NCBI RefSeq assembly: GCF_036373705.1
Contig: NW_027102719.1
Location: 86,207 to 150,206, forward strand
Reading direction: 5' to 3'
Origin: Amia ocellicauda
Taxonomy: Eukaryota > Chordata > Actinopteri > Amiiformes > Amiidae
Length of the DNA stretch: 64,000 nucleotides
The notes below the pieces were generated by a model. The model made no database searches. It was not told where the DNA came from and saw nothing but the letters and a program-made list of their open reading frames with translations. Made by a program: the position numbers and the translations under genes. This document shows, in pieces, positions 22,567 to 64,000 of the stretch. Positions within the stretch are counted from its first letter, which is position 1. Every line of letters starts with the position of its first letter.

Positions 22567-22569
22567 GTA

Positions 22570-27088: not shown

Positions 27089-27095
27089 CCACACA

Positions 27096-27131: not shown

Positions 27132-27133
<2 letters not shown>

Positions 27134-37370: not shown

Positions 37371-38167
37371 TATATTGTCTTATGATACTGTTTTAGTAAA
37401 TAAAAAGAATAAGAAAAGTTATATATATATTAGGTTATATTGTTTTATGAAACTGTTTTAGTAAATTAAAAAATAAGAAAAGTTTTAAATATATATATAT
37501 ATATTTAAGGTTATATAGAGAATAAGATAATAAAAGTTTTATATTTTATTTTAGGTTAAAATGTTTTATGATTTGTTTTAGTAAATTAAAAAATAAGAAA
37601 AATAAAAGTTTTATATATATATACAAGATTATATTGTATACATTTAAGAAAAATAAAAGTTGTAAATACACATATATATTTTATTTTAGATTATGTTTGA
37701 TTATACTGTTTTAGTAAATTAAAAAATAAGAAAAATAAACGTTTTATATATATTTAAGGTTACAATGTTTTATGATACTGTTTTAGTAAATTAAAAAGAA
37801 ATATGAATATTTACTCAGAGTGGGATTTGAACCCACATGTGTTTTTAGTTTATATGTTTTATGATTAGGCTTAGGATGATACTGTGTTTGCAAAATAAAA
37901 AGGTAAGAAAAAATCGATTAAGAAATGTATAGACTTACATATATTGCATGTCATTACATATATATTTAAGCAAACACAGATAAACACACATACCTATATC
38001 TCTTTAGTTTATATTTATCAATAGACAATAGAGAACAACAGTGAAATGTATAGAATTATATCTGTACATTTTGACCAGCACTGTACTTATTATATTTGTT
38101 ACATTAGTGAATGCTCAAACGTAGCCTTAACATGTATCATATTTAAGAATATACTGCATTTCATTCC

Positions 38168-38209
<42 letters not shown>

Positions 38210-38378
38210 TATATATATATATATATCTTGTTAGGTTTTATTTATCAATAGACACTAAAGACATGCACACCACTTTTCTTAGAGAGACACAGTGAAGCAC
38301 TATTTGTGAATACTCATATGTAATAAATAATATATGTATATATGATTTGTTTGTGCTTTAATGTATAGAATTAATAAA

Positions 38379-38411
<33 letters not shown>

Positions 38412-38558
38412 GGTGACTTTTATTGTGACAAACAAGCATTTTACAACATGGAACATAGTCAGAAGTAGAAAAAGATACTCCATGAAATGTTTTATAGATA
38501 CTTGTAATCATTAATTTCTTGTTCACAACACCAACATTGGACAGAAAGAAACACTGAC

Positions 38559-38672
38559 CTGTACAGAGTAATGTCATTTCCAGCATATTCCATATATATT
38601 CTATTCAGTCTTTCACTCTTGGCTTCTTTTTCAAAGTTATACCAGGTTCTGGTGACAAAGTACATCAGGTAT
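38559..38672 (-). other. Candidate 114-nt exon in palindrome arm (B-left)
   Basis: The counterpart of 678-791: open, with the same acceptor and donor and phase 2 at both ends. Confidence 0.3.
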
Positions 38673-39540
38673 CTATTGTAAATAAAGTGAGAAACTCTTA
38701 AGTTTCTATTCCTTTGGAAATACCTTATTTTTCAAACCTACAAATACATGGTGACAACTGCAAGCATGACACACATACAAAACACAGAAATAGGGACCAC
38801 ATTGCAAGGATATAATAAGCACAAATAGTATTTTACTGCAAATTTTAAGTTTTGTAAAATTATTTATATAACTTCTAGGAGTAATCTGCAAACTACATAG
38901 TGAAAATGCAATCAGTCTTCAGGAAACACACACAGCAGACTGAAATAAGCACAACGTCATATTTATATGAACCAAAACTGCATTCTACTAAACCCTGAAA
39001 CTCTGAAAAATCACTACAAACTCTGTGTTTTGTAAAATGGCTTATTTCACAGACACAGAAACAAATAGGCTCACCCTCAACATATTCCAACACTTGTTAT
39101 GATGTAAACTTAAAGGTTTACCAGTAGTACAGGGGTATTATTAATCTATTCATGCAACTTTTAGACACTTGTCTAATACAGAGCTAACAACTGCATTGAT
39201 AGTGGGTAGCAGGGCTTTGACAATGCTGTGCGGTGGGGTTTAAAATGACTTTGTAGGCCAGGGCTTCAAAACCTTACCCCATTTTAACATTTTCAAATTA
39301 GCCTCCAACCCCTAAAATACTAAGACATGTTTTTTTGTATCATATGTATCATGTTGTATTACTATGTACATTAATGTGGTTTATAATTTTGATTTAATTT
39401 GACATAATTTTATCATATTTTTAATTACAAATTCATATATATAAATAACAAATACTATATAATAATAGTCATAATAATGCAAAAACATATTAAGCAATCA
39501 TATTTTTACTTACAAAATAATATATATAAAATAACAATAT

Positions 39541-41906: not shown

Positions 41907-42782
41907 CTATGGTTAATTCCCTCTCACTTTGTAACTTTTACTAGTAAGTCAAATTGAGATTTTAAAAGTTGGTACATGTGAGACAGAGCCAAGAAGGTTG
42001 AATTCGGACTGTAGGTTGCTTATGTACATGGGTAAATTACTTTTGCTAGCCTAGTATAGTACTATATACCAATGCTTTATTGTCCTTCAGGCTAAATCAT
42101 TTTGTATATCAAACAATGGTGAGTGACATATTCTGAGTAATGTACTTAAACTAGTGCTAATCATGCTCTGAAACCAACCCATAGAGAACAAGGTGAAAAC
42201 TGGAATTAATGGCAAAGCACAGCCATAAACAGTCAACATAATCAAGCCCAGTTAGAAATATAGATGTCTAATTATTTTGAGCACTAATCTTACATTTCAT
42301 AAAGAAAAGCATTTAATTCTTAGCAATTGTTAGGTGTATGCTGTACGTATTCCAGTTAGTTCACTGTAATGACAGAAATGAGAAGTTCATTTCTTTAGCA
42401 CACTCACGGAAAACCATTTATTTTTAAACAGTTACTAGATAGCCAGTTTAGGCCTTCATCTTAGTTATTTCTAATAGCAAGAGTGCTTAAAATTATTAAT
42501 TGAATTATATATCTTTGTTCCCCCTTTTTCTTACTGCTCTCATAAAATAACATTTTATTCAAGCAATAACAGGGTAGCCTAAATATACAACATATCTTAA
42601 AGTACAAGGCATCTGAAAGCTGTGTATGGTCTCAATGCATTTGATGCGGAGGATTAATTCAACTGAAAATGGTCAAAACTGTGGACTTTTATTGAATGTT
42701 AAATTTGACAGTGTTCTCTCTTAAGGACCTGTTGCCTGTGGGACGTTGCTGCTTTGGTTGTGTCCAGTGCCATTTCAGATAA

Positions 42783-43141
42783 GAGAGGCTCTGCAGGACA
42801 AGCAGGACAGAAACCCGTCTCACAGACACTCTGCCTGCTCTGCATCTCCATTTCCCCTCTCCACCGCACACAGCTGAACGTTATTCTGAATCTTACACAG
42901 AGCGCTCAGCTTCTGACACTGATGGCAACATGGGGCCTGGCTCCGAGCCTGAGGAAAACCATGAGGTAATTCAAACTTATTTAATTTCTATACTGTGAAA
43001 TGTCAGATTGAAAGTGGTTTCTGTTCTTAATGTTTGTATTGTTTATGTATTTCATGTATTTTTGTACAGTTTTGTGTTGACGAGTCCTACATCAACATGA
43101 ATGTGAATTTCAATGTGAAGAGCACGTGTCATGCTCTGTAA
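42783..43141 (+). other. Candidate two-exon coding segment, copy B
   Basis: The counterpart of 4,901-5,259. The donor at 42,966, acceptor before 43,070 and stop at 43,139-43,141 are kept, with SDTDGN in place of SDADGN. The sequence before it (41,907-42,782) has nothing recognisable. Confidence 0.25.
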
Positions 43142-43421
43142 TGCAAGGGAGCAATGAGGGGCTGTAGAGACACTCATAAGAGTAGCAGGAGCACTTTTTT
43201 ATGAACTACTAATTTGTTATATTTTAATAGAATATGAAATGTAGTAGAAAGTTGTATCAGATCAGACCACTGGACAGAAACACCCCACCAAGACTGAGTT
43301 TTCATGTTTCTGCACATGTCACCTACAAACTGTTGACAGAGTGGATGAGGGTCTACAGCAGAGGTTCCCCATCCTGAGGTTGTGACAAAGTCAGGGTGAG
43401 TTTTGTTTAATATGTTTTTAA

Positions 43422-43470
<49 letters not shown>
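43422..43470. repeat. (ATT)n microsatellite, copy B
   Basis: About sixteen units, against ten in copy A. Confidence 0.9.
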
Positions 43471-43471
<1 letters not shown>

Positions 43472-44349
43472 ATTATTATATTGTTATTTTAAATATATTA
43501 TTCTGTAAGTAAAAATATGATTGCTTAATATGTTTTTGCATTATTATTACTATTATTATATAGTATTTGTTATTTATATATATGAATTTGTAATTAAAAA
43601 TATGATAAAATTATGTCAAATTAAATCAAAATTATAAACCACATTAATGTACATAGTATAACAACATGATACATATGATACAAAAAAATGTCTTAGTATT
43701 TTAGGGGTTGGAGGCTAATTTGAAAATGTTACAATGGGGTAAGGTTTTAAAGCCCTGGCCTACAAAGTCATTTTAAACCAGACCGCACAGCATTGTCAAA
43801 GCCCTGCTACCCGCTATCAATGCAGTTGTTAGCTCTGTATTAGACAAGTGTCTAAAAGTTGCATGAATAGATTAATAATACCCCTGTACTACTGGTAAAC
43901 CTTTAAGTTTACATCATAATTTTTGTAAGTGTTGGAATATGTTGAGGGTGAGCCTATTTGTTTCTGTGTCTGTGAAATAAGCCATTTTACAAAACATAGA
44001 GTTTGTAGTGATTTTTCAGAGTTTCAGGGTTTAGTAGAATGCAGTTTTGGTTCATATAAATATGACGTTGTGCTTATTTCAGTCTGCTGTGTGTGTTTCC
44101 TGAAGACTGACTGCATTTTCACTATGTAGTTTGCAGATTACTCCTAGAAGTTACATAAATAATTTTACAAAACCTAAAATTTGCAGTAAAATACCATTTG
44201 TGCTTATTATATCCTTGCAGTGTGGTCCCTATTTCTGTGTTTTGTATGTGTGTCATGCTTGCAGTTGTCACCATGTATTTGTAGGTTTGAAAAATAAGGT
44301 ATTTCCAAAGGAATAGAAACTGAAGTGTTTCTCACTTTATTTACAATAG

Positions 44350-44460
44350 ATACTTGGTATAACTTGGTAGAACCTGGTATAACTTTGAAAAAGAAGCCAA
44401 GAGTGAAAGACTGAATAGAATATATATGGAATATGCTGGAAATGACATTACTCCGTACAG
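44350..44460 (+). pseudogene. Broken copy of the candidate arm exon (B-right)
   Basis: The start has changed to TACTTGGTATAACTTGG, which puts a TAA in the exon frame within the first codons. The rest and the donor site are preserved. Confidence 0.35.
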
Positions 44461-45040
44461 GTCAGGTTTCTTTCTGTCCAATGTTGGTGTTGTGAACCAG
44501 AAATTAATGATTACAAGTATCTATACAACATTTCATGGAGTATCTTTTTCTACTTCTGACTATGTTCCATGTTGTAAAATGCTTGTTTGTCACAATAAAA
44601 GTCACCATTGTGTGTGTGTGTGTGTGTATTTTATGAATTCTATACATTTGAGCACAAACAAATCATATATACATATATTATTTATTACATATGAGTATTC
44701 ACAAATAGTGCTTCACTGTGTCTCTCTAAGAAAAGTGGTGTGCATGTCTTTAGTGTCTATTGATAAATAAAACCTAACAAGATATATATATGTTTGTGTG
44801 TGTGTGTGTAATGGAATGAAATGCAGTATATTCTTAAATATGATACATGTTAAGGCTACGTTTGAGCATTCACTAATGTAACAAATATAATAAGTACAGT
44901 GCTGGTCAAAATGAACAGATATAATTCTATATATTTCACTGTTGTTCTCTATTGTCTATTGATAAATATAAACTAAAGAGATATAGGTATGTGTGTTTAT
45001 CTGTGTTTGCTTAAATATATATGTAATGACATGCAATATA

Positions 45041-46261
45041 CACTCACCTAAAGGATTATTAGGAACACCATACTAATACTGTGTTTGACCCCCTTTCGCC
45101 TTCAGAACTGCCTTAATTCTACGTGGCATTGATTCAACAAGATGCTGAAAGCATTCTTTAGAAATGTTGGCCCATATTGATAGGATAGCATCTTGCAGTT
45201 GATGGAGATTTGTGGGATGCACATCCAGGGCACGAAGCTCCCGTTCCACCACATCCCAAAGATGCTCTATTGGGTTGAGATCTGGTGACTGTGGGGGCCA
45301 GTTTAGTACAGTGAACTCATTGTCATGTTCAAGAAACCAATTGGAAATGATTCGACCTTTGTGACATGGTGCATTATCCTGCTGGAAGTAGCCATCAGAG
45401 GATGGGTACATGGTGGTCATAAAGGGATGGACATGGTCAGAAACAATGCTCAGGTAGGCCGTGGCATTTAAACGATGCCCAATTGGCACTAAGGGGCCTA
45501 AAGTGTGCCAAGAAAACATCCCCCACACCATTACACCACCACCAGCAGCCTGCACAGTGGTAACAAGGCATGATGGATCCATGTTCTCATTCTGTTTACG
45601 CCAAATTCTGACTCTACCATCTGAATGTCTCAACAGAAATCGAGACTCATCAGACCAGGCAACATTTTTCCAGTCTGCAACTGTCCAATTTTGGTGAGCT
45701 TGTGCAAATTGTAGCCTCTTTTTCCTATTTGTAGTGGAGATGAGTGGTACCCGGTGGGGTCTTCTGCTGTTGTAGCCCATCCGCCTCAAGGTTGTACGTG
45801 TTGTGGCTTCACAAATGCTTTGCTGCATACCTCGGTTGTAACGAGTGGTTATTTCAGTCAAAGTTGCTCTTCTATCAGCTTGAATCAGTCGGCCCATTCT
45901 CCTCTGACCTCTAGCATCAACAAGGCATTTTCGCCCACAGGACTGCCGCATACTGGATGTTTTTCCCTTTTCACACCATTCTTTGTAAACCCTAGAAATG
46001 GTTGTGCGTGAAAATCCCAGTAACTGAGCAGATTGTGAAATACTCAGACCGGCCTGTCTGGCACCAACAACCATGCCACGCTCAAAATTGCTTAAATCAC
46101 CTTTCTTTCCCATTCAGACATTCAGTTTGGAGTTCAGGAGATTGTCTGGACCAGGACCACACCCATAAATGCATTGAAGCAACTGCCATGTGATTGGTTG
46201 CTTAGATAATTGCATTAATGAGAAATTGAACAGGTGTTCCTAATAATCCTTTAGGTGAGTG
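45041..46261 (-). mobile_element. DD36E (Incomer-type) Tc1/mariner element, intact
   Basis: The 1,221-bp element has 29-bp perfect inverted ends starting CACTCACCTAAAGGATTATT and is flanked by TA at 45,039-45,040 and 46,262-46,263. It holds one uninterrupted transposase gene. Copy A has the uninterrupted site GCAATATATGTAAGTC near 7,147 with a single TA, so the insertion is younger than the segmental duplication. Confidence 0.95.
45073..46113 (-). CDS. Tc1/mariner transposase, DD36E type, full length
   Basis: A 346-residue protein from ATG at 46,113 to the stop at 45,073. It should bind the terminal repeats and cut and paste the element at TA sites in the nucleus. Residues about 10-50 (FERGMVVGARQAGLSISQSA) form the first helix-turn-helix and about 60-125 the second. 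The catalytic residues are D155 (AWSDESR), D246 (QQDNAPCH) and E283 (LNPIEHLW). I count 36 residues between D246 and E283, which places it in the DD36E/Incomer family, not classic DD34E Tc1. There are no stops or frameshifts and all three acidic residues are present, so it may be active. Confidence 0.93.
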   Translation of the reverse strand: MGKKGDLSNFERGMVVGARQAGLSISQSAQLLGFSRTTISRVYKEWCEKGKTSSMRQSCGRKCLVDARGQRRMGRLIQADRRATLTEITTRYNRGMQQSICEATTRTTLRRMGYNSRRPHRVPLISTTNRKKRLQFAQAHQNWTVADWKNVAWSDESRFLLRHSDGRVRIWRKQNENMDPSCLVTTVQAAGGGVMVWGMFSWHTLGPLVPIGHRLNATAYLSIVSDHVHPFMTTMYPSSDGYFQQDNAPCHKGRIISNWFLEHDNEFTVLNWPPQSPDLNPIEHLWDVVERELRALDVHPTNLHQLQDAILSIWANISKECFQHLVESMPRRIKAVLKAKGGQTQY

Positions 46262-47129
46262 TATGTAAGTCTATACATTTCTTAATCGATTTTTTCTTAC
46301 CTTTTTATTTTGCAAACACAGTATCATCCTAACCCTAATCATAAAACATATAAACTAAAAACACATGTGGGTTCAAATCCCACTCTGGGTAAATATTCAT
46401 TTTTCTTTTTAATTTACTAAACCAGTATCATAAAACAGTGTAACCTTAAATATATATAAAACGTTTATTTTTCTTATTTTTTAATTTACTAAAACGAATC
46501 ATTTAACATTATAACCTAAAAAAAAATATAAAACTTTTATTTTCTTATACTCTTTTTATTTACTAAAACAGTATCATAAAACAATATAACCTATTGATTA
46601 TATATATATATCTGTATTTAAAACTTTTATTCTCTTTTTATTTACTAAAATAGTATCATAAAACAATATAACTTTAAATATATATATATGTATTTAAAAC
46701 TTTTCTTATTCTCTTTTTATTTACTTAAACAGAATCATAAAACAATATAACCTTAAAAACACAGTTTATGCTATTAAACATTACACCTCCACACCAGCAG
46801 TGTGAGGTGCCCTTGGACATTCACCATGATGGATGTCACCCTAACAAAATGGCTACCATCTTACCAGATGACCTATGACCTTACAAATGGCCGATATCAG
46901 TCAAAATGGCCGATATCATCCAAGATGGCTGACAAGGGAGGGTCAAATGGTAACCCAGGGGGGTGCTGGGAAGGAGAGAGGAGTTCCGGTTCAATGGTAC
47001 ATAAGGAGGGAGGGTCAAAGAGTAACCCAGGGGGGTGCTGGGAAGGAGAGAGGAGTTCCAGTTCAAAGGTACATAGGGAGGGCGGGACTTCCGGCTGTCA
47101 AAATAAGTGATGCTGCCATCTATACTACT

Positions 47130-48535
47130 CACAGACACAGTTAGCCACAGCCACGGCTTCTTCCAATTCTCGTCAGTGTTCCAGATTCGATGTTTTTTTT
47201 CTTCAGTGACGTTGTAAACACGCACGTGGGGAGCACATCAAAACCCAGTTTTGTGATTCAGTTACAGAAACAACTGACACAGCGGAGCAGTAGGGGTTGT
47301 AACATTTTTTGGTCCAAGGTCTGGACCACAGCGACTGAGTGGTCCGGACCTCGGCACTGTGGTCCACGGAGTGGTCCCGATCACGTAACGCAAATTGGGA
47401 TGGGTTTTTGTTTAGTATTTTTGGACACACCGTATAAAACCCATTTACTGTCAAATATATTATCGACATATCCAAACTACAAACATAATGATCATAAATG
47501 TACAATATTAATAGTATAATTCTCATTTGTAACATAGCCGATAGCTGATTTCTTTTTTAATCTTATCTTTCAGACAATTTGTAGGAAGCTGTGCTAACGT
47601 TACTCTGAAAAATGCGCTTACATTGAGCAACTTTGTCATTCTGAATGAAATTATTCAAGTTATAATTTTTTCCTCATCATGACTGAAGAGAAAAGATAGC
47701 TTATTTAGAATCTTATCTTTAATTTAATGTCAGCCTATTTACATGTCCTCTGTTTGCGCTCTGCCAAGAAATGTTTTATCAACTTTTTTGGTTAAACCAT
47801 ATCTTCCTTATTTTATCACTGTGAGATCTAGCAACATTAAAAACAAAAGCATAGGTTGTTTTGTTTATGTATGGTTAACATTGTAATAGTTGGTATTTTA
47901 AAGAGAGATTATAAGAGATGTATTAACGTATTGATCATCTGATGCCCTTTGTCTTTTCTTGAAGGATAATGTCATTATGAAGAAGATAAAACTTTTTTTT
48001 TTTAAACACCTCCCCCCACCAGGATTTGGGTCGCCTCCGCACTGTTTCTGCTGAAACAAAAAAACAAGTGTCAATCTCTGCAGGAATCTACTCCGGCTCC
48101 CCCTTCTGGTGATGAAGAGGAACCCGAGTCCAAGATGGACGCACACAGAGAGAGAAAGAGACAGAGAGAGAGAGTTGCACTTCCTCCTGCAATGCAATAA
48201 ATATGCCCAAAATAAGGGACACATTCCTTAACAAAATAATGAATGCCACCCTACCTTTGACAAAACTGAGAAAAAATAAAAATGGTCAGTCCTCCTGGAG
48301 GAGGGACACACAGCCTCCCTGGCTGCCCAATATGTCACCGCCTCCCACAGCCTGAGGGGCACAGTGACACATGAGCACCAGCTGTAAATAAAATGTAAAT
48401 ACTCATTTGTAATGCATGTCATTGTATTTCCAAAAAGGAATCTGTAAACACTAAACCTATTTTCTTTAGTTCTATGTATTAAAGATTATTTCTAGTTTAT
48501 TACATTTTGTTTTTCTGTACTTTTATACATCTTAT
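47130..48535. other. No recognisable gene, copy B
   Basis: The counterpart of 8,154-9,673, about 112 bp shorter near 48,136. The stem-loop is at 47,322-47,366. Confidence 0.5.
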
Positions 48536-48909
48536 TGTGATTTTGGCAGGACGCTGTCTGTCACGGCATGGCTGCTGCTGACGCACACTAATTAGGTGCT
48601 CATGTGTTGCAGCCGTGTTGTCCGCTGCTTCGCAGACAGCTTGTGAGCTCACGGCTGCAGGCAATGATCACTGAGGCGACTGTGATGTCATTGGCAGGTG
48701 TGCTTCATCTATTTAATCCCTCTCCTTCCCCGAGGGAGACTTTATTGTGACTGCCCGGAGCACCCTGTTTGTGTGGCTGTTTTGTGTGCTGGTTTTGCCT
48801 TGTTTTCCCCTTTTTGTGTTTTTTTCTGTTGGACTATTGTGAACCCCAATAAAGCTCGGACACCGCCGGAACCCGAGACTCTCTCCGTTTATTGGTTCCG
48901 GCATTTACA
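48536..48909 (+). repeat. 5' LTR of Gmr1-like element, copy B
   Basis: 374 bp with the same ends as copy A; the flank CTTAT is shared. The U5 end reads TTGGTTCCGGCATTTACA. Confidence 0.8.
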
Positions 48910-48976
48910 TTTGGTGGCCAATGTGGGGAAGCTTTGTGACATACTTACCCTGAACTCTGTACCCGGAAGGACAGCT

Positions 48977-49130
48977 ATGGAGGCGTCTCCAGTGGAACAG
49001 TTGTTGGCCCCAGTGGTGAAGCTGCAGGCTCAAAAACAACAAACTCTCGAGACGCTGTGGCCGCAGCAAACCCGGCTTGGGCAGGTCTGCAGATTCCAAA
49101 GATGGGACCGGAGGACGACCCAGAGGCTCT
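48977..49130 (+). pseudogene. gag N-terminus of Gmr1-like element, copy B
   Basis: The same ATG and MEASPVEQLLAP start as copy A. A deletion of about 49 bp after LETL removes the Pro/Ala linker and shifts the frame before GPEDDPEAL. Confidence 0.55.
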
Positions 49131-50623
49131 GAATTTCTGTCCAATATTAAAGATCCTAGGCTCTCATTGTCTGATTTGGCTGGGGCACAATTGGGACATG
49201 TCTCTGGGGACCGATCACCATTAGTGACTGCAGGCGATGAGAGGGGCAGGGACAGCCTTCCCTCTGACTCCAGTCGTGTAGCAGCCAACAGTACCCTGTT
49301 GGACCCAGGGGAAGGAACGAGTTCTGGGACTCACCTCCTCTCTCCTTCTTCCAGTGGAAGGCCCGACACTGGATCCCGCCTTCAACCGGGTTTCCGATTT
49401 CGCTATGGACCAGACACAGGATGATGCCCTGGGACATATATATGACCAGGTCAGAGTTGTTGATGGTTGCATAGTGAATACACAGAGGGCACTTTGTGTT
49501 TCTCTCCAAACCAGCAGCCAAACCGATCATGCTGGATGATGTTGCAGACAGAATAACGTTCACCACGGTGCCTCCACACTCTTTCACGAATACCAATCGA
49601 GCTGCACGGTGCTGGGCTGTGAGCACAGGTCCCACTAGAGGATGACGGGCCCTCGTGCCACCCTCATAGAGTCTGTTTCTGACAGTTTAGTCAGAAACAT
49701 GCACACCAGTAGACCGCTGGAGGTCATTTTGGAGGGCTCAGGCAATGCTCCTCCTGTTCCTCCTCGCACAAAAAAGCAGATACTGGTCCTTCTGGTTCTT
49801 CTGATAGCACATATGAATGTGACATCCTGAAGGAGCTGGACTACCTGTGCAACCTGAATGGGCTGCAGGGAGCGCCTCATAATACCAGTAGTGACAAGGA
49901 CACTAGCAAAAGGCAAAACTAGAGAAGAATCAGTCAGGAAGGATAAGGAGAGAGCAATCGTCTGTGGCCACCACCTGCAAAACCATTCCCTTTTTGGGGT
50001 TGTCTTGCTGTTGCCTCTCTCCGGTGCACCTGCTGTCACTTTCATTTGCACCAAAACAAGAGACAGTGATTCACAACCGCTTAGGCTTCCTAACTGTACA
50101 GATTGATATGCCTGAAGTGTAACTGACTTGGTGTTATGCTGTGATGATTACGTGTTCCCTTATTTTTTTGAGAGTTGTATTATAGATGATACCATTGAGA
50201 ATGAGGCCACAGAATTGCGGGATTTCGTGACTTTCAACACTTATGCAACCGAGTCAAGGTGACAAACAGTTCAATGTCAGGTTGGCACCATGGCTTAGAT
50301 GTGCCATTCATGAAACTTTCGTTGATTCTTGAAGCCACTGGCTTTGCTTCCCTCTCCAAGTCTGTGTAATAAGGAATTGGCAGGAGCCCACGAGTTGAAA
50401 CAATCAGAGGACAGAATGCAAATGAAGTGTTCTGAGAAAAGCAAAGCAGAGAACGGACATTTTCCTGTGTGCATGTAGATGGCCGACTTTGACACAACTT
50501 GATGAAGTCTTGTAGATCCTACCACTGCTTAAGTGCACTACTACGCTTGCTTTCAGGGAGTTTCGTCTCAAACTTTCAAAGAACAGGTCTCGTACTAGAC
50601 GGACGAGCACCTTGGATTGGCCT
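49131..50623. other. Linker and unassigned block, copy B
   Basis: The counterpart of 10,320-11,804, with the DPAFNRVSDFAMDQ segment at about 49,370 and the ILKELDYLCNLNG segment near 49,825. No gene is recognised. Confidence 0.4.
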
Positions 50624-50697
50624 TGGCCGATGAGGGGATCAAACCCAAGACCTTGGCGTTATTAGCACCACGCTCTAACCAACTGAGCTAACCAGCC
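50624..50697 (-). tRNA. tRNA-Ile(AAT), copy B
   Basis: The 5' end GGCTGGT pairs with ATCGGCC apart from G-T wobbles. D and anticodon stems and the AAT loop are intact. The T arm (TTGGG/CCCTC) has three of five pairs, and the T loop has TTTGATC in place of TTCGATC. It is somewhat better preserved in the acceptor than copy A, but still degraded. Confidence 0.65.
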
Positions 50698-50821
50698 AGC
50701 AAAAGCAATCTCTCTGCCAGGCATTTGCTCATGTTTGTATAATATGGCTGGAAAATGCATTACACAAGTGTGAAAAGAACACTTTTGCAATTGCTAGCAC
50801 TGGTGATGCTATAAATCAATC

Positions 50822-50885
50822 TGTCAGAAGTGGGATTTGAACCCACGCCTCCATCTGGAGACCAGAAAACCCTTCTACACTCTTA
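50822..50885 (-). pseudogene. Truncated tRNA-Leu 3' half at deletion junction
   Basis: It keeps the T arm, variable arm and 3' half of the intron of the tRNA-Leu at 12,005-12,119 and stops at CACTC, where the sequence continues as TTAATAAAGGAGG of the integrase. Confidence 0.9.
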
Positions 50886-51480
50886 ATAAAGGAGGACTGG
50901 GAGGCGACCGCCCCCTCCCAGACCTCTGTGGTACAGCACATCCTGGACCTGAGAGATCGGCTATCGGCACTGGGGAAACTTGCACAGTCGCATCTCTTAC
51001 AGGCCCAGGAGCGACAACAGCGCATGTACAACAGGAGAGCCCGGTTACGATCATTCACCCAAGGACATGGTACTGGTGTTATTCCCAAATTCAACATCTA
51101 AACTGCTGGCTAAGTGGCAGGGACCCTTTGTGGTCACACGCCGCTTAGGGGATGTTGATTATGAGGTGTGTCGCCCGGATCGTCGGAGGGAAAAGCAGAT
51201 CTATCATCTGAACATGCTGAAGAAGTGGCGAGAGGAGGAAGCATTGGGTGCTTCTAGTTCCCCCCACAATAAAGAGTCTGAAGCCGCTGTTTCTGAGGTT
51301 CGCACTGAACTCAATTTAACAAACGCCCAGAAACAGCAGGTTCGCTCTTTATTGTGCCGCTTCCAGCATGTCTTTTCTCACCAACCCGGGCTCACACCTC
51401 TCATTGAACACCACATCCACACTGCACTGGACACCTGCGTGCGTGTCAAACCCTGTCGCACCCCCTATTACAAAAAGTAG
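50886..51480 (+). pseudogene. Integrase C-terminal part and RT start, copy B
   Basis: It begins at IKEDWEATAPSQTS of the integrase. The frame opening at 50,980 runs unbroken through LAKWQGPFVV, YHLNMLKKWRE and the RT linker QVRSLLCRFQHVFS to the shared TAG at 51,478-51,480. The stop of copy A at 15,307 is a Glu codon here. The catalytic integrase core is deleted. Confidence 0.85.
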
Positions 51481-52200
51481 GCTGTCAATGAAGAGGTGCA
51501 GAAGATGTTGGAGCTGGGAGTCATTGAAAAGTCACAATCGGAATGGTGTAGCCCTATAGTCTTGGTGCCAAAGCCTGACGGCAGCACTAGATTCTGCGTT
51601 GATTATAGGGAGCTCAATGCAGTGTCTAGGTTTGATGCCTATCCGATGCCCCGTGTGGATGAGTTGCTGGATCGGCTGGGCGCTGCTCACGGAAAACCCG
51701 GGCAAGTGAACAGTTGGGAGGAGGGAGACCAAGTATCTGGGGTACCTCTTAGGAGGGGGGCAGGTATGGCCAGTCGTTGACAAAGTGACCTCTATTGCCT
51801 CCTGTCCGCCTCCTAAGTCCAAAAAGGAAGTTCGGCAGTTTTTGGGGTTTTCCGGGTATTATCGCCAGTTTCTGCCGGACTTTGCCACCCTGGCTTACCC
51901 CCTGACCGAACTGACACGAAAAGGTGCTCCAGATACGTTCCAGTGGACGGAGCAGTGCCAGGTGGCTTTCCAGGCGATTAAGGACCGCCTCTGCCAACAC
52001 CCTTTTTTTAAATGCCTTGACTTCTCTCTCCCTTTCATTCTACAGACCGACGCCTGAGAAGTTGGAGTGGGCGCGGTCCTGTCCCAGAGTGTTGGGGGTC
52101 AGGAACACCCCGTCCTCTATCTAAGCAAACAATTATAGCCCAGGAGCGTAAATATAGCACCATTGAAAAGGAGTGTCTCGCTATAAAGTGGGCTGTGCCC
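51481..52200 (+). pseudogene. RT and RNase H remnant, copy B
   Basis: After the TAG the RT continues as in copy A, with the same loss of the YxDD core. The RT end is better kept (KKEVRQFLGFSGYYRQFLPD, FATLAYPLTEL) up to LQTDA and a stop at 52,055-52,057. The remnant fuses to the LTR at 52,201. Confidence 0.85.
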
Positions 52201-52390
52201 TGTTTATTTAATCCCTCTCCCTCCCCGACGGAAGCAGCTAACCGACAAGAAGGTGGACTGTATCTATTACCCCTGTCTGCCCGGAGCACCCCGATTGTGG
52301 ACACTTTTTGCTTTTGCTTTTGATTTTGTTTTTGTTTTGTATCTCCGCCCTTTCTTGACATACCTGAACTAAATAAAGCCGGCTTTCACA
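52201..52390 (+). repeat. Truncated 3' LTR, copy B
   Basis: As in copy A, but a deletion after AATAAAGCC joins directly to GGCTTTCACA. Confidence 0.7.
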
Positions 52391-52750
52391 GTAGGCTATT
52401 CAAGAAGGGGGGCTCAAAGATGGCCAGATATAAATTTATCTATTTGATTTTATTTTATTTATTGTGCTTTGTTGGCACAGTGTTTAATGTTCAGTCTTAA
52501 ATACATATTTTTTAATTGTAGTTTTGTAATTGATTTTGTCTTTGAAAAGCAAGACAAAATAATAAAAAGCACATTTTAGACTATTTAATTTATGCAATGG
52601 TGAAAAAATTGTCAAAATAACTGAAATGTAAAAAACAACAAACAAACAAAAACTATCAAAACAATCTGATGCATTTAAAAGAACAATAACGGTCAATGCA
52701 TTTGACAAATAAAAAAACCAGCAAAACATTCAAAAACAGTGAAACCAGTG

Positions 52751-52957
52751 CTATTTAGAAATAATTAATACAATCATTTCCATAATTTCTTTACGTACTG
52801 TTGGAAATATACCATCTGGCCCAGGTGATTTGTTTGTTTTTAATTCTGCTAGTCCCTTTACTACCTCCTCCTCATTTATCCTGATCTCTCTTAGGGTTTG
52901 ACTGGACTGGTTGTTAACCTGTGGCATGTTATCTGTTTTTTCTTTAGTAAAAACCTC
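52751..52957 (-). pseudogene. LINE reverse transcriptase fragment, copy B
   Basis: Same fragment and stop as at 16,913-17,119 (LKTNKSPGPDG). The following 1.3 kb has no recognisable gene. Confidence 0.75.
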
Positions 52958-54453
52958 AATATCGTCAGCTCAGCATACCTTAGTATAACTTAATATAAGC
53001 AACAGAGACGCTGCTGTGAAGGAGCGCAATAGTCTCTATAACCGCTCTGTCACAGCCACCTCAATAAATACATCAATTCATTAATCATTGTATTGACTTC
53101 AACCATTTAAACACATGTAATGTTTTGCTTTATGCTAGGGGTGGCTAACCCTGGTCCTGGATTTGAGCCCCCACCTCCCCAGGGATCTGTATTGGCAAAC
53201 TGCTGAGCTGATGATATTGACTGCAAAGGGGAATCTCTCTGGAATGGTCCATTATACAGGGGAGCTAAAGACCTCCAGGAAAGCACTAACCTGTGGCCCT
53301 GGGGCCCTGGGGTTTGTCTGCCTAACGCTCGTCCTCTGTTCTTTGGGTCTGCACTGGTTCTGGTCCTATCTGACCAACCTGTTCTGAATAGGGCAGTGGT
53401 TCTCGACCTGCGGCCCGTCACACATGGAAGTGCGGCCCACGATATGACACCCACATTTAACACTACAAGCGCAGAGCCGGTCAATTTGACCGTTTTGGTT
53501 ATTCAAATTTGAATTATACTATGTTCCAAAATACACTGCGTATATACCCATTCGTGACTATTCCTAACTATATGTATTAAACATGCCTACAGCGTTTTAG
53601 CTGCATAAACACGAAAATAAATAAGTTATAAACACATTTACCTAGAATAGCCAAAATCGGGTTATTTTGACTGGTCATTTAAATACATAATAAATCAAAT
53701 ATAACACATAATCCTGCCTTCCCTTTACAATAGAGTCAGTCTGGCACTCAAGTGGCGATCTCTACCTGTCTACAATCTTTCATGTGCTTGATAAACACAT
53801 GCATTGTACAGCATTACAGGTGTTTTCTTACAACTGTAGTAAGATTGAGTGGATACAGTGATTACCCGCAAATCAACATGGATTTGAAACGGAGATTGAA
53901 GAGAGCTCGTTTTGGAAATTGGACAAGTAAAATCATGTTCTGTGAAATTGCAGTCTCTCACCACACAATAAGATGAGTTACAACAACCTCAACTTGAACA
54001 GAATTGTAAAACTTTAAATAACGTGCTCAGGTAACCACAAAACATATGTTCTATGAACGTTTTGTGCAATGCGCATGTGCCAAAACCATCACGTCATGAT
54101 GACATACTACTTTACCGGAGTTGAGACATTTTTTGTATTAATTAGCATGGGATAAAGATGCTGATCATGCAAGAAAAGATGAAGTAGCCCGCGTTTGAAT
54201 GATTATAGATGGACTTTGTGGATTGCAAATAATGAAATTAATAAGTACAGTGGGGGAAAAAAGTATTTGATCCCCTGCTGATTTTGTACGTTTGCCCACT
54301 GACAAATAAATGATCAGTCTATAGTTTTAATGGTAGATGTATTTTAGCAGTGAGAGACAGAATAACAACAAAAAAATCCAAGAAAAATGCATTTCAAAAG
54401 TTATAAATTGATTTGCATGTTAATGAGGGAAATAAGTATTTGACCCCTTCGAC

Positions 54454-55462
54454 TCAGTACTTGGTGGCAAAACCCTTGTTGGCAATCACAGAGGTCAGAC
54501 GTTTCTTGTAGTTGGCCACCAGGTTTGCACACATCTCAGGAGGGATTTTGTCCCACTCCTCTTTGCAGATCCTCTCCAAGTCATTAAGGTTTCGAGGCTG
54601 ACGTTTGGCAACTCGAACCTTCAGCTCCCTCCACAGATTTTCTATGGGATTAAGGTCTGGAGACTGGCTAGGCCACTCCTGGACCTTAATGTGCTTCTTT
54701 TTGAGCCACTCCTGTGTGTTTTGGGTCATTGTCATGCTGGAATACCCATCCACGACCCATTTTCAATGCCCTGGCTGAGGGAAGGAGGTTCTCACCCAAG
54801 ATTTGACGGTACATGGCCCCGTCCATCATCCCTTTGATGCGGTGCAGTTGTCCTGTCCCCTTAGCAGAAAAACACCCCCAAAGCATAATGTTTCCACCTC
54901 CATGTTTGATGGTGGGGATGGTGTTCTTGGGGTCATAGGCAGCATTCCTCCTCCTCCAAACACGGCGAGTTGAGTTGATGCCAAAGAGCTCGATTTTGGT
55001 CTCATCTGACCACAACACTTTCACCCAGTTCTCCTCTGAATCATTCAGATGTTCATTGGCAAACTTTAGACGGGCCTGTACATGTGCTTTCTTGAGAAGG
55101 GGGACCTTGCGGGCGCTGCAGGATTTCAGTCCTTCATGGCGTAGTGTGTTACCAATTGTTTTCTTGGTGACTATGGTCCCAGCTGCCTTGAGATCATTAA
55201 CAAGATCCTCCCGTGTAGTTCTGGGCTGATTCCTCACCGTTCTCATGATCATTGAAACTCCACGAGGTGAGATCTTGCATGGAGCCCCAGACCGAGGAAG
55301 ACTGACAGTTATTTTGTGTTTCTTCCATTTGCGAATAATCGCACCAACTGTTGTCACCTTCTCACCAAGCTGCTTGGCGATGGTCTTGTAGCCCATTCCA
55401 GCCTTGTGTAGGTCTACAATCTTGTCCCTGACATCCTTGGACAGCTCTTTGGTCTTGGCCAT
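54454..55462 (-). pseudogene. Tc1 transposase pseudogene, copy B
   Basis: The same frameshift after DPKHT as in copy A. A few residues differ, such as KGMMDGA for KGIMNGA, YDPKN for YDLKN and QEWPSQS for KEWPSRS. Confidence 0.95.
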
Positions 55463-55504
55463 GGTGGAGAGTTTGGAATCTGATTGATTGATTGCTTCTG
55501 TGGA

Positions 55505-55585
55505 CAGGTGTCTTTTATACAGGTAACGAGCTGAGATTTAGGAGCGCTCCTAATGTCAGCTCATTACCTGTATAAAAGACACCTG
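55505..55585. repeat. 81-bp palindrome upstream of Tc1 transposase, copy B
   Basis: The counterpart of 19,667-19,747; ATTACCTGTATAAAAG here restores a pair that is lost in copy A. Confidence 0.85.
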
Positions 55586-56721
55586 GGAGCCAGAAATCTT
55601 GCTGATTGATAGGAGATCAAATACTTCTTTCCCTAATTAACATGCAAATCAATTTATAACTTTTTTGAAATGCGTTTTTCTGGATTTTTTTGTTGTTATT
55701 CTGTCTCTCACTGTTAAAATACACCTACCATTAAAATTATAGACTGATCATTTCTTTGTCAGTGGGCAAACGTACAAAATCAGCAGGGGATCAAATACTT
55801 TTTTCCCTCACTGTAAGTAATGAAAGTTGAGGAAGAATGACTATTTTGTCAATTAGACTTGGTTTATAGTTGTGAAAACTTGAAAAATTAAGTTCAATTA
55901 ATATGTTTTTCAGTTGACTTAACTAAAAATTCTAAATGCTTATTAATTGATAGAGTAGGTTGGCTCAATTTACTGCATGTTATTTCAACAGTGAGTGAAC
56001 TTAACACTTCATGTTTGCTAAACTGAGTCAAAGCAACAAGATGACTTGACTAAGTCACGTTGCGTCAACAAATAATTTTTACAGTGTAGCGGTTACATTT
56101 ATGATTTGAAGAAATGTGGCTTCATTTTTAGTAAGAGGCTCAACGGAGTGTAGGTCCTTGTTTTGTGAAAGTATGCCGCAAAGCTAACCATATTGTGACC
56201 GCAGTTCACCATTGGTCATTTGAAAATATCAAATAGAATGTGCTCTCTCTGGTTGGTTCCCTGACTAATTGAGGTAGAAAGCAGTCGTTTGCCCTCTAAA
56301 ACATTTCTACTTCTGCTTCTGTAGTCTCAACTGGGCTTTCCCAGTCAATGTTTAGGAAATCTAAAACCCCATTATAACAGCCACTGTAGCCCAATTCAGA
56401 AATCGTTTAAAGTGGTAATGTTATCTCTGAATAACTAGTTGTGTGCAAGTTTCTATCAGCTACTTTCAGAGAACAAAAGTAGTGAGGGAGTTCAAGGGTG
56501 ACGATCTCGAGTCATTGTACATTTTCCCTGCATGCTTTGAAGACACGCGATACTTAAAATACACAATACTTCAGGTCCAAGTTCAGAACCGGACAGCCGT
56601 CTTTAGACTCTTTAATAAAGGCAACAATTCCACTGTATCCCCAGATGGGGGAGCTACAACGCTAACCTAAATCAATCAGTGGGCCGTAAGTCTGGGTGTC
56701 AAATAAGCACCTGGGCCACAA

Positions 56722-57750
56722 CAGGAGCGTAGCCATGGGTGGGCCTGGGTGGGCCTGGGTGGGCCATGGCCCACCTACTTACCTCTCAGGTCCACCCAAT
56801 CAGAGAGTGTAAAATTTCTCCCGCGTGTTAAAAAAACATTATAAATATAAGATTCTGAAGCAATAACGTGTTTCGGCAAATCACAGGCTTTATTCCAAAG
56901 CATGGGGGCTGGTTCTTTTCAAACTAATGGTTACATTTTGGCTAAGTTATGCACAAGTAGGTTATAACTGGCTGTGGTAAATGTTTTTTACCTAGTGCAT
57001 CACACCATGACAACTGAACAAATGTAGTTGTGAACGGAGTTCCTACAAATGGTGAAACAAAATTATTTGTTGAATTATTTCAAAAGACGAGAAGAGAACT
57101 ATCAGAACAGCACATTACACAACCTGATAAATCACCAACTGCATCGGAAGAAACCAATATAAGCACTGCTTTGCATCCACAGGCCAGTGTTGAATTCGGT
57201 AAGGAAACATTTTACTGTCCCTCGGATTTATAAGGAATAGATGAGTTACCTACACGGCCCAAATTGCAGGCATTTGCTTTAATTTGTGTTAAATCCCAAA
57301 GTTTTTCATCACAGCGGTGGTATGAGAAGTATCGCTGGATGGAATACAGCATAGCCAGAAATGCAATTATCTGTAGATATGCAGGCATTTGTTCTGATTC
57401 CCACACCGAAGAAACATTCACTAAAAATGGTTTTAAAGATTTTAAGCATTTGAATCAGAGCCGTTCAAAACATGAAGCAAGCAATTGGTACTGTCCATCC
57501 GAAGGTTACAGACAAAGCCACACAGAAACATTTTTAATTGGTTAAATCGGGATTCCAGGAAGGCTTATTTGAGAGGAATTGTGATTAAAGCTGTGACTGA
57601 CATTCTGATGTACTGCACAAAGCAGTGAATTCCAATCAGGGGTCTCAGAGAAGCTCTAAATAAAGGACATTTCTCTGAGCTATTTAAAGTAAACATGATA
57701 GTGAAATACAAACCTGTGTTGAAGAACTCCGCAAAAATGCAACACTATGA
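56722..57750 (+). pseudogene. hAT/ZMYM1-type transposase fragment, copy B
   Basis: The counterpart of 20,842-21,870 with the same TTF-type zinc-finger sequence and stops. The sequence between the Tc1 element and this one (55,814-56,721) has no recognisable gene. Confidence 0.6.
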
Positions 57751-57892
57751 GCCCTGATACTCCAAAAGATCTACTGCTTTACCATCACGCACACCTCATC
57801 ACAGGGTACATTTCATGACCAGCATCAGTTCAGTATAGACCAGTGTCTCTATGGTTACCTTGTCCCAGTACAGACCAGTGTGTCTCTATGGC

Positions 57893-57956
<64 letters not shown>
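57893..57956. repeat. (TTA)n microsatellite, copy B
   Basis: A pure tract of about 64 bp; the copy A tract is about 43 bp with one interruption. Minisatellite units flank it at 57,835-57,885 and 58,297-58,462. Confidence 0.95.
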
Positions 57957-58469
57957 TCTTGGCAGATGCCCTTATCCAGTGCTATACAAATTGCAAGAAT
58001 ACAGTTAAGGCATCAAATATTACAAATACAAATTTACATTGTACAAAGCAATTCAAAATATAATACATTTTACAACTTCCAATTTACACAGGTAAGTACA
58101 GTAAGTGAGGTCATACATCCTGGAACGTAAAAGCTAAGTGGTGTCAAGATGTAAGGTCACAGTCAAGGGTTACGGGAAAGGGAGCAAGGGGGAAATCAAT
58201 CAATAATACAAGTATTAGTAACACAAGAAGCATGATCAAATGCTGTGAAGTGTTATCTTCCAGGGAATAAAAGGACTAATACGTAATATTACTAATGGTT
58301 ACCTATGTAGAAGCCCCAGTATAGAACAGTGTCTCTATGGTTACCTATGTAGAAGCCCCAGTATAGAACAGTGTGTCTCTATGGTTACCTAATCCCAGTA
58401 TAGACCAGTGTGTCTCTATGGTTAGCTATATAGAAGCCCCAGTACAGAACAGTGCGTCTCTGTGTGTAG

Positions 58470-58645
58470 AGTCACAAACACACAGATGGAAAATATTCTA
58501 GAACCAGAGGGAATTCTAGATGGGCAGGAACCAGAACCCTTGGATGATCTAGAGCTAGAGAGGGAGGATTCCCCTGTTGTGAGACGCTCCTAGAGACATA
58601 ACAAGGGTACACTTCCAGTAAGCTTAATAGAAGGGTATTTACAAA
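58470..58645 (+). pseudogene. C-terminal end of second Ty3/Gypsy pol, copy B
   Basis: Frame MENILEPEGILDGQEPEPLD, then EDSPVVRRS and a stop, slightly longer than in copy A. Confidence 0.5.
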
Positions 58646-58764
58646 AAATATGCAGTGTTTTGTCATTATAGATCACAGACCCCTTAAAAGGTATCCTGAA
58701 ATTGCCTGGAATGTTTTGATATATAACCTGTATTAATTCAGCAGGTTTTCAACAGGGGGGATAC

Positions 58765-59159
58765 TGTAAGGGATACTACTTTGTTCAGAATACGGTATTG
58801 TTACATTAAGATCACCAGAGAGGTCTAATGTAATGGATGGCTTCGCAAACCAACTGAATTACTGAATCGCCTAACCTGCTGTCCAATCGGAATGTAGCTT
58901 TCTCGAGAAAAAGGGTGGGCTGTAGTTCGGGAAGAGTAGTTGCCATGATTAGTTGAGTGTGCTAATTGGAGCTGTGTAGTGTGCAGAGGAAATAAACATG
59001 TTTTTTATATGAAAACAATGAACTTTGTTTTTGAACACTGGCCTGGAATTGTGTTTCTTTTCAAGTTTTTTTTTAGAAGAGACTGTTCTAGGTGCAAAGT
59101 GAACTGGACCCGTGTGACACGCAGTTAAGGAGAGCCCGTGTTGAACTAAGATGACTACA
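58765..59159 (+). repeat. LTR of second Ty3/Gypsy element, copy B
   Basis: Polypurine tract then TGTAAGGGATACT; tentative end ACTACA, 395 bp as in copy A. Confidence 0.5.
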
Positions 59160-60386
59160 GTGAGATTTCCTGGACAAAGATCGGGCAAAGGATAGCGCAG
59201 GGTGCACCTGCACCTGAGTTTTTGTCAAAAAGCATTGTGATCAGAGAAGGTAAAAAGGGAAAAACGCAAGTCAGCAGCAATAGCATTTTCTTTCTTTGAA
59301 GCATAGCATGACCATAGTTTTTCTATTGTATAAGTATCTTGGTGTAGGGGTGTCTCGCCTGTCCTGTAAGATTCGGGAGGGTAGGAATAGTTTAGTTATC
59401 CTCTCTGTTTACTTTTTGTGTGCCCCATTACTGTTAGTTCAGGTAGCCATTGTGAATTTAAATCTTGAACCCTACTTTGCCAAATTAGGTCACAGCTATA
59501 CTTCAGTATGTAAAAAAATATATAACGCAGGATGGGCACATACCTCAAATTTGGGGGGTATAGGGACGAACTGTGTTGGGGGCGCGGACTTAGATCCTTT
59601 AGTTTCTCATCCATCCAAGATATCTAGCTTAGAACCCCTACAACAGCAGGACATTTACAAACTCCTCGTTACATATGGTTACCTATGTAGAAGCCCCAGT
59701 ATAGACCTGATGCTGATGAAGTGAGGTCCGGGGGGGCTGGGGGGCTGGGGGGCTGCGAAAGTGAGGTCCGGTGGGGTCCAGGTTTCCTTCTTTGTTACCA
59801 TCACTTACAAAGTGATCAAACACAAAGGCTTCTCTGACATTGTGAAAGTGTTTGCCCAAATCAGTAGGCAGTGGGTCCTCAGCCAGTCCAGGTTCAATCA
59901 CAAAATTAGGGTTCTCAGTAACAGTCCAAATCAAAAACGCAAGCAATCCTTAAAATATATATATATTATCACAGTCAAAACCACCACAATCTTTCTACCC
60001 AACAAACAAGGAGAGCGAGGTAGGTCCTTATATAGTAAGTTTTAGAACAGTGGGCAATTTAAGATGGTTCTTGTGATATATCCTTCCCAACAAGAGCGCA
60101 GGACTAGGACACTGTCTTGTATGAGTGTCTGTTAGGTGGATGAGGAACTCATTGGCTGAGATTCAGATAATTATTACAAAATAAAATAGTAACCCCAGTA
60201 TAGGACAGTGTCTCTCTATGGCTACCTGGTCCCAGTATAGAACCGTGTGTCTCTATGGTTACCTCTTTCGTATGCCCAGTATAGACCAGTGTGTCTCTAT
60301 GGTTACCTATGTAGTAGGACCAGTATAGACCAGTGTGTTTCTATGGTTACCTAATCCCAGTTTAGAACCACGTGTCTCTATGGTTA
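59160..60386. other. Unassigned, with extra minisatellite units
   Basis: A 142-codon frame (59,296-59,724) has no recognised domain; in copy A it is shorter because of an extra A near 23,598. Five irregular minisatellite units lie at 60,187-60,386 and are absent from copy A. Confidence 0.5.
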
Positions 60387-61645
60387 CAGGGCTCTACGTT
60401 TACTTTTTTCCTCAGGAGCACTGTGACCCTAAATTGAAAACAATGTAGGGGCACAGTCCAAAATTTAGGGTCACAAACAATTAGTGGTACATCATCATAA
60501 ATGGTTCATATTTAATGCTAAAATGAAAAACAAATGTAACAATGTGCAAGACATTTAAATACAGTGCTGTACAGTGGAGCCTCGAGAGAGCAGAAGATCA
60601 CAACAATATTAATATGAATACTTCACGCACTGCGCAGTTGGCGCCCCTTCCTCAGATTCTGTTGACTCTTCTGGAGAAGCAGCTCGGCCGACGTGACTTG
60701 TTTGCTGTCCAATGGCATCAGTCAAATATATTTTAAAACACACCCTCCCTTTCCGTAATTGCTTCTGAAAATGCTGCAGCAGCGGCTCTATTTTTCAGCA
60801 CTTCCAAATCTCACAGCCACTGCAAATCTCGCAGCTGCTGTTTTATTTTATCAGCAGTTGCACTTCAGGGCCACCGTAAGAAACAAACTAGGTGTAGCTC
60901 AAGTAACAGAAAGGTTGAGTACTTGTATGGTTTAAACGGGTCCACTGTGCCATCCTTAATGGACAAGTTTTCGGTCCAGAAATGTACCAGCTGAATGTCT
61001 CCATCCTGCCATCGGCTCCAGTGCGTCTCTTCAGTTTTCTGTGTCATTGTGCCCGCACTGTGTGAGTTCACTCGTGCACATGTTGCAGCAAACTCTTCAG
61101 TGTAAATTCAATGTAAAGTGCTCCTTTACTTTCCACGGGTGTAGCTGTTGCCTCTCTCAAGGTTTTTTCTAGTAGCTGCGCCCCAGGTAGACCCAAGTAA
61201 TCGACGATTAATTACATTTTAAGATTTTATTCGATTTTAATCAACTTTATCGCTAAGTCGTTGGCAGCCCCGCTGTCGCTGAGTACTACTGTATCCGTAA
61301 GTGTGTTTTAATGATGAGGCGGCTAACGCCAGATGGTAGGTGATTGGATGTCGTACCAAATGTACCGCTGCAGCACTGGGTCATGAACGTCATTCACGGT
61401 TCTTGTAGTTTTCATTGCCTTCTCGGTTAATTGCGACAATCAACAACCGAACTACATTTCCCACATATTCTAACGTAATAATGATTAGTGTAAAATATAA
61501 TTATTATCAAAATCCTGTCAATGTAGTATTTACTTATAGAGTTCAAATATTGTATATGCACTGTGCGCCCAAATTGTATTTCACACTCGCACAACATTAT
61601 TTTCACTCACAAATTCGAGCATAACGCTCGCACTGTAGAGCCCTG
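60387..61645. mobile_element. hAT-like element inside the minisatellite, copy B
   Basis: It starts CAGGGCTCTAC and ends GTAGAGCCCTG (with CACT before), and both sides are minisatellite units (GGTTA on each side). No transposase is visible. Copy A keeps only the right two thirds (about 24,264-25,120). The match of ends beyond 11 bp is poor, so the call rests on the termini and the interrupted array. Confidence 0.5.
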
Positions 61646-61946
61646 GGTTACCTATGTAGTAGCCCCATATAGACCAGTGTGTCTCTATGGTTACCTATGT
61701 AGTAGCCCCATATAGACCAGTGTGTCTCTATGGTTACCTATGTAGTGGCCCCAGTATAGACCAGTGTGTCTCCATGGTTACCTATGTAGTAGCCCCAGTA
61801 TAGACTAGTGTGTCTCTATAGTTAACTATGTAGTAGCCCCAGTATAGACCAGTGTGTCTCTATGTTTACCTATGTAGTAGCCCCAGTATAGACCAGTGTG
61901 TCTCCATGGTTACCTATGTAGTAGACCCAGTATAGACCAGTGTGTC
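61646..61946. repeat. 44-bp minisatellite array, seven units, copy B
   Basis: Same units as copy A plus a duplicate of the first unit (CCCCATATAGACCAGTGTGT occurs twice). An inverted single unit follows at about 62,578-62,640. Confidence 0.95.
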
Positions 61947-63489: not shown

Positions 63490-63559
63490 GTATGGTGAGG
63501 ACAATGACACTTTTAAAGTGGAGAGTTTCCCCAGCAGCGGCGATGATGACAATAACTAA
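63490..63559 (+). other. Candidate terminal exon, copy B
   Basis: The counterpart of 26,958-27,027 with the same acceptor and YGEDNDTFKVESFPSSG ending. The overlapping frame starting MVRTMTLLKW ends at SDYHSGSTSV with a stop near 63,621, inside 44 bp that copy A lacks. The rest to 64,000 is a CA tract and unassigned sequence. Confidence 0.3.
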
Positions 63560-63667
63560 GGAAGTGACGAGTGCCACAGAGAAGGTGACGTCAGACTACC
63601 ACTCGGGCTCCACCTCGGTCTAAGACAGCAGCACCTGGGATGCCCAGCACGCCCCCCCCGCCACCCA

Positions 63668-63700
<33 letters not shown>

Positions 63701-64000
63701 TTGTACCGGTACTGAGCCAGCACTGTCCCCAGTCCCCTGGATCCAGTGATAATATAGAGAGCACAGAATTCAAGTGAGAAAAGTAAATTCGGATAATTGT
63801 GAAAGTCTACAGAAGCCCCCGCACTGCGACTGTCTGTTTACTCTGATGGTGCTCAATTCATGTTGCCGTTCTAGACAAGCGGCCTGTGTCATTAATGCTG
63901 GCTGAACACGGCTGATCGTGGCACAGAGCGCCAGCAATTGTGAAAAGGCACATTAAATCGGTTATGGTTCCTTTCATCGCTTAGCTGGCTTGCCCTGTGT

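Follow-up and report, generated by a model that had tools for sequence, protein, structure and literature searches.

An intact Incomer (DD36E) transposon in one unit of a bowfin tandem array, part of a large and little-diverged burst

The stretch of bowfin (Amia ocellicauda) DNA considered here, referred to as the window, comprises 64,000 bases at the end of a 150,206-base contig (C84:86207-150206). It is very probable that an intact Incomer element inserted at a TA dinucleotide of one array unit once the right arm of that unit was about 1% diverged from the right arm of copy A but while its near-identical versions on C84 and C18 had yet to split, and that this insertion formed part of a genome-wide burst that was most likely founded by horizontal transfer. 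Observed directly are the anatomy of the element, the pair of empty and filled sites, the order of events in a tree of arms, the recurrence of an identical element in unrelated DNA, the count of element ends and the low divergence. The element itself is ordinary, and what is notable is the number and likeness of its relatives in bowfin.

The perfect 29-bp ends and the TA duplications that had been described in a sequence-only reading of the window were confirmed (Table 1): the two ends are complementary without mismatch over exactly 29 bp and divergent beyond, the length of 32 bp returned by inverted-repeat detection being made up of these 29 bp, the flanking TA and one base more. The window contains this 29-mer two times; over 100 shuffles the mean was 0.00. 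The transposase frame, described in the same reading as uninterrupted, is indeed open for 346 codons (46113-45073, minus strand), and its translation contains D155, D246 and E283, with 36 residues between the last two. A Pfam search of the protein returned HTH_23, HTH_Tnp_Tc3_2 and DDE_3, and between the first two of these domains stands GRKC, where the Incomer criterion is a GRPR-like motif. Comparison with other species had pointed to several private, perhaps damaging changes in the window protein, a reading that was set aside when most of them proved common to bowfin copies; relative to one such copy (L040) only two changes are left, R20Q and E146A, and E146A distinguishes the window protein even from its sibling copies on C18 and C7. 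The transposase is predicted to be functional, and the element may have been mobilised by the enzyme of another copy.

Table 1. Positions in the window of the element, its parts and the homologous arms and sites
Feature	Position	Strand	Basis
Incomer (DD36E) transposon, 1,221 bp	45041..46261	- (strand of transposase gene)	sequence
29-bp terminal inverted repeat, transposase gene 3' side	45041..45069	+	end comparison
29-bp terminal inverted repeat, transposase gene 5' side, perfect complement of the other end	46233..46261	-	
Left TA target duplication	45039..45040	.	
Right TA target duplication	46262..46263	.	
Transposase, 346 aa, D155 D246 E283; HTH_23, HTH_Tnp_Tc3_2, DDE_3 domains	45073..46113	-	
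Copy A homologous site without the element, identical to the joined flanks	7133..7172	+	
Copy A right arm with empty site; inverted counterpart 1-1659	5578..7238	.	self-comparison
Copy B left arm with further empty site	37432..39540	.	self-comparison
Copy B right arm, split by the element	43478..46753	.	self-comparison
Block almost identical to C18:38400477-38422xxx, same insertion inside	42500..64000	.	

Incomer is the DD36E family of Tc1/mariner elements (Sang et al. 2019, PMC6875036), for which the main text gives a transposase of 335-382 aa, an element of about 1.2 kb and inverted ends of 22-32 bp. Judged by its sequence, the window element is an intact, ordinary member of this already known family, because all of its anatomy falls within these published limits (PMC6875036): both have a length of about 1.2 kb, a 346-aa transposase, the DD36E signature and the TA duplication, and the type Incomer of Rhinella has ends that are likewise 29 bp long. 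The DD36E identity proposed earlier is therefore upheld by spacing, size, ends and target duplication. Its likeness to fish DD36E proteins comes from the hit list of a protein search: among 120 listed relatives the motif pattern was matched in 67, of which 61 are D-36-E, 4 have the second D changed with the same spacing and 2 have other spacing, and it was unmatched in 53, many of them short. Sleeping Beauty SB100X (PDB 5cr4), a DD34E/Tc1 transposase and the one solved structure found as a relative by sequence, belongs by sequence to the same catalytic fold family and aligns with the window protein from residue 119 onward only (E 1.2e-43) and its three acidic residues fall in register; however, it has the 34 residues between second D and E that define the DD34E/Tc1 spacing, as opposed to the 36 of the window protein. 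No relative and no exact end was found in viral_contigs or in genome_contigs, and the end sequence used as a text word in the papers searched gave no match. A term search of the main text of PMC6875036 revealed no mention of Amia or bowfin. One Incomer-like protein with 76% identity to the window protein is labelled Vibrio parahaemolyticus and comes from an 874-base contig (P0105); it is probably contamination, that is, fish DNA inside a bacterial record.

The window contains two copies of a larger sequence, A and B, which differ at 299 of 24,059 aligned bases (1.24%) and are offset by 37.85 kb at the left end. Each has two inverted arms (in copy A, 1-1659 against 7238-5578), both of them bearing the site, such that there are four homologous sites in the window; the element occupies one of them, and those at about 87, 7147 and 37941 are empty. 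Deletion of the element and one TA predicts a 40-mer that matches copy A exactly from position 7133, and no remnant of the element was seen at the copy A site (near 7,147), so the description of this site as uninterrupted stands. The same description had treated A and B as a before-and-after pair with the insertion in copy B. The contrast between empty and filled is real and the element is present in copy B, but A and B are two among many array units, and the insertion is not unique to copy B, since the same event is also found on C18.

Genome-wide counts refer to the bowfin assembly of 988 Mb in 385 contigs. Mitochondrial sequence agrees with a bowfin host: COX1 is on contig C308, and the adjacent ND2 has 98% identity to Amia calva, the next hit reaching 73%; three species of Amia are listed at NCBI. 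The window belongs to a megabase-scale tandem array on C18 (38.14-41.91 Mb), which lies near the end of that contig (42.25 Mb), takes the opposite orientation around 38.2-38.5 Mb and has units of roughly 38 kb whose spacing, as assembled, is variable. A 641-bp query spanning the copy A site gave 40 scored matches among 513 candidates, 39 on C18 (38.18-41.91 Mb) plus copy A itself, and each of the 40 (625-653 bp) spans the site without a break. An empty junction identical over 31 bases is present 241 times in the genome (control 0), with C1, C3, C6, C7, C9, C10 and C18 among the places listed, many of the listed junctions forming inverted pairs about 4.5-10 kb apart and one pair 16 kb apart. 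Because so many junctions occur in inverted pairs on several contigs, we infer that the arms may be the long inverted ends of a dispersed repeat that is also present in the array units. In the window itself (1-7238 and 37432-46753) inverted arms of about 1.6-2.1 kb stand around some 4 kb, and no Pfam domain was found in the six frames of positions 1-8102. Other Incomer copies reside in the array: one near the homologue of 7,486 is present in 13 of the 20 arm loci fetched, and in the 12 complete ones its frame stops after 76 or 78 residues; a further one, at the homologue of 4,184, has an open frame; and several copies in the array are broken.

The exact filled junction was found four times in the genome, at window copy B, C18:38,419,419, C18:40,399,056 and C7:46,996,428. 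The first two share their flanks, matching over 4,221 bp with 2 mismatches and 2 gap bases, and they lie within a block common to C84 and C18 that starts between 42.0 and 42.5 kb, extends to the window end and contains 6 mismatches in about 20.5 kb (0.03%). Left of this block, at 42000-42500, there is a sharp jump to about 1% divergence from C18:38.42 Mb, and this edge suggests that array units or haplotypes have recently exchanged sequence. Given the near-identical flanks, the insertion at C18:38.418 Mb was rejected as an independent sibling; it and the window insertion are one event, in two alleles or in two units with sequence exchange. A tree of 26 arms (L009 having been dropped as the same as the window's own arm) places the filled arms in three positions: the copy B right arm with that of C18:38.42 Mb (support 100), the filled arm of C18:40.40 Mb with the copy B left arm (support 92), and the filled arm of C7 as the most distant, with 3.9-4.8% divergence from those it was compared with. 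At C18:40.40 the element and its arm have opposite relative orientation to that seen in the window, and the C7:46,996,428 element differs from the window element at 17 bases (1.4%), the arms differing by 4.8%. From the three places in the tree, the inverted element and the divergence of the C7 element and arm, we conclude that one and the same arm TA was struck at least three times independently. A short pattern for the right junction had 13 matches, three of which are known sites; the other 10 were taken for chance, because the pattern includes only six flanking bases beyond the TA.

The filled copy B arm is nested among empty arms in this tree, and it differs from the copy A arm at 15 of 1,440 positions and from the C18 arm with the same insertion at 1 of 1,439. 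These differences bracket the event and support an insertion after the split from the copy A arm and before the split from the C18 arm; the activity after duplication that had been claimed thus holds, the insertion being younger than the divergence of A and B. Tc1/mariner transposases bind the ends of the element, excise it and join it to a TA, which is duplicated on repair. By such a cut-and-paste route, an Incomer would have been excised elsewhere and joined to the arm TA, whose duplication on repair would have given the TA on both sides; the recipient unit would by then have had a right arm about 1% diverged from its copy A counterpart, and once filled it would have split into the near-identical C84 and C18 versions.

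Insertion sites of the family show a sequence preference. TA flanks both sides of 39 of 42 other copies, with TG on one side in the remaining three, and when these three are dropped, 31 of the 39 sites have an ATAT core. In the window 581 of 4,539 TAs have such a core, so that the excess is 6-fold over a background consisting of this repeat-rich window only; for a narrower core class that includes the arm site, the excess is 11-fold.

Several other accounts of the filled and empty sites can be envisioned. The element may have been ancestral to both copies and then lost from copy A, through precise excision or through gene conversion with an empty unit as donor, and arrays do exchange sequence, as the nearly unchanged block around the insertion with its sharp edge attests. 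However, an ancestral element would need a loss at each of the 241 exact empty junctions and in all 40 scored arms, and the tree places the filled arm inside a group of empty ones. A footprint is the usual outcome of Tc1-type excision, and no remnant was seen at the copy A site. This account is extremely unlikely. Alternatively, A and B could be two haplotypes misjoined in one contig, in which case the pair would represent an allelic polymorphism. The contig is short and the window lies at its end, and the presence of the same insertion on C18 within the block of 0.03% divergence means that C84 and C18 may themselves be alleles. Nevertheless, the 1.24% that separates A from B is far above that figure, on C18 copy B extends farther than the window does, into sequence that resembles the spacer between A and B (L031), and many more units exist on C18; we regard a misjoin as very improbable. 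A different question is whether Incomer is guided specifically to the arm TA as a hotspot. In favour are at least three independent insertions in this TA, one of them inverted, where about 0.05-0.1 would be expected if all TAs were equal (14,000-28,000 insertions over 245 site copies), but a 6- to 11-fold preference, with its window-only background, lifts the expectation to about 0.3-1.1, and the arm site was picked once its insertions were known. The three insertions are thus nearly accounted for by copy number together with target preference and are suggestive at most; the view that they prove a hotspot was rejected, and a directed hotspot is unlikely. Insertion into one already diverged unit, followed by the C84/C18 split, thus remains the preferred account.

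The window element belongs to a burst of copies, large and little diverged, in a fish outside the teleosts. A 31-base sequence consisting of TA and the element end has 28,038 exact occurrences (14,081 and 13,957 on the two strands; control 0), and since no locus can have more than one exact end on each strand, the loci with such an end number at least 14,081, although some of these are due to array duplication or assembly duplicates rather than transposition. In a stretch of C1 with pairable ends (88 ends in 1.6 Mb) there are 32 two-ended copies and 24 single ends, which extrapolates, roughly, to about 10,200 two-ended copies and 17,800 loci. Divergence was sampled in the first 20 two-ended C1 copies, one end pair 1,809 bases apart being passed over; L030 was dropped from the divergence and frame analysis for an end that is not exact, and L035 and L002 (duplicates) and L025 (cut off) from a separate comparison of element copies. 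The counting and comparison of genomic copies that had been proposed speak against all copies being old and diverged: 19 of the 20 lie 0.25-1.30% from the column majority sequence, in a sample that is biased to young copies because exact ends were required. The twentieth (L060, C1:1524879-1525911) combines exact Incomer ends with 19.5% divergence inside and is possibly another element using the same ends. The 346-residue frame is kept in 6 of the 20 and a seventh has 347 residues, while it is kept in 15 of 16 copies picked for closeness to the window element. The elements at C18:38.42 and C7:22.39 Mb are identical over 1,221 bases within unrelated flanks, and the window copy is 1 base away from them.

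The highest Incomer number quoted in the main text of PMC6875036 is 5,418 copies, in Esox lucius, counted at over 90% identity and over 1 kb, criteria that differ from the exact ends behind the at least 14,081 bowfin loci. A single peak of transposable element activity at a Kimura distance of 4 has been described for the bowfin genome (PMC8423624), and the sampled Incomer copies are less diverged than this peak. The burst would appear to be recent in years; bowfins are slowly evolving (PMC11785729 and PMC8423624), so low divergence need not mean few years, and for the same reason no dates in years are given here.

The sequence-only reading had suspected horizontal transfer and proposed a search for near-identical transposases in other species. 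Such proteins exist: a carp protein (P0001; UniRef A0A8C1LXF1, Cyprinus carpio, a cluster of 155 sequences), 346 aa long like the bowfin transposase, matches the window protein at 98% identity over its whole length, and two proteins of Paramormyrops match it at 97% and 95%. Among the remaining listed hits, those with a coverage of at least 95% of the window protein are at 57-87% identity, and some shorter pieces, one from Esox lucius among them, reach 92-96%. Of 45 sequences compared, 28 are intact bowfin copies, which depart from the carp protein at 4-11 of the 346 residues, and for copy L040 the five differences are at positions 12, 138, 190, 253 and 271. The bowfin and carp lineages separated some 300 million years ago, and for that reason this likeness is hard to square with descent alone. 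The bowfin burst was probably acquired horizontally, to judge from these protein comparisons, and its beginning would then have been a transfer between lineages. Transfer of Incomer among vertebrates has already been argued (PMC6875036, main text).

The competing view is that Incomer has persisted in the bowfin lineage ever since it parted from the teleosts and that the likeness to carp reflects slow evolution. Bowfins and gars do evolve slowly (PMC11785729 and PMC8423624), and the teleost copies were compared as proteins only. Against this, the carp protein is only 4 of 346 residues away from the closest bowfin copies, whereas other hits covering at least 95% of the query, Paramormyrops (95-97%) apart, stand at 57-87%; moreover, 19 of the 20 sampled bowfin copies coalesce within about 1%. 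Carp is not known for slow evolution. We consider vertical descent very unlikely, with horizontal transfer as the preferred origin of the burst.

No published report of Incomer in bowfin was found in a literature search that included the main texts of PMC6875036, PMC8423624, PMC10320754 and PMC7599744, with supplements and most subscription papers outside its scope. We hold it to be evenly balanced whether a broader proposition is correct, namely that bowfin is undergoing, or has only just emerged from, an Incomer invasion among the largest known (at least 14,081 loci), that this invasion began by horizontal exchange with teleosts, and that transposition is ongoing, with the window insertion and many others existing as presence/absence polymorphisms among living bowfins. 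Near-identical copies, some with open frames, in a slow non-teleost fish would be suited to dating an invasion, and the bowfin Incomer set would be a good system in which to test for live transposition and to seek a donor or vector. In addition, a single site that is empty in 241 copies and filled in 4 constitutes a natural insertion record.

The window holds other sequences of note. A Tc1 fragment with a Sleeping Beauty-type HTH occupies matching places in copies A and B (open reading frames at 18,848-19,699 and 54,686-55,537) and ends at the same residue in both, and it looks older than the A/B duplication. A gypsy-like element of 2.9 kb that includes most of an integrase open reading frame (12065-14998) is in copy A and missing from copy B. 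Between the copies, at about 32353-32496, lies a fragment of a THAP domain (E 3.5e-07). A tRNA-Arg is predicted at 34985-35077, and a tRNA-Ile is predicted at matching places in copies A and B (11804-11879 and 50623-50698).
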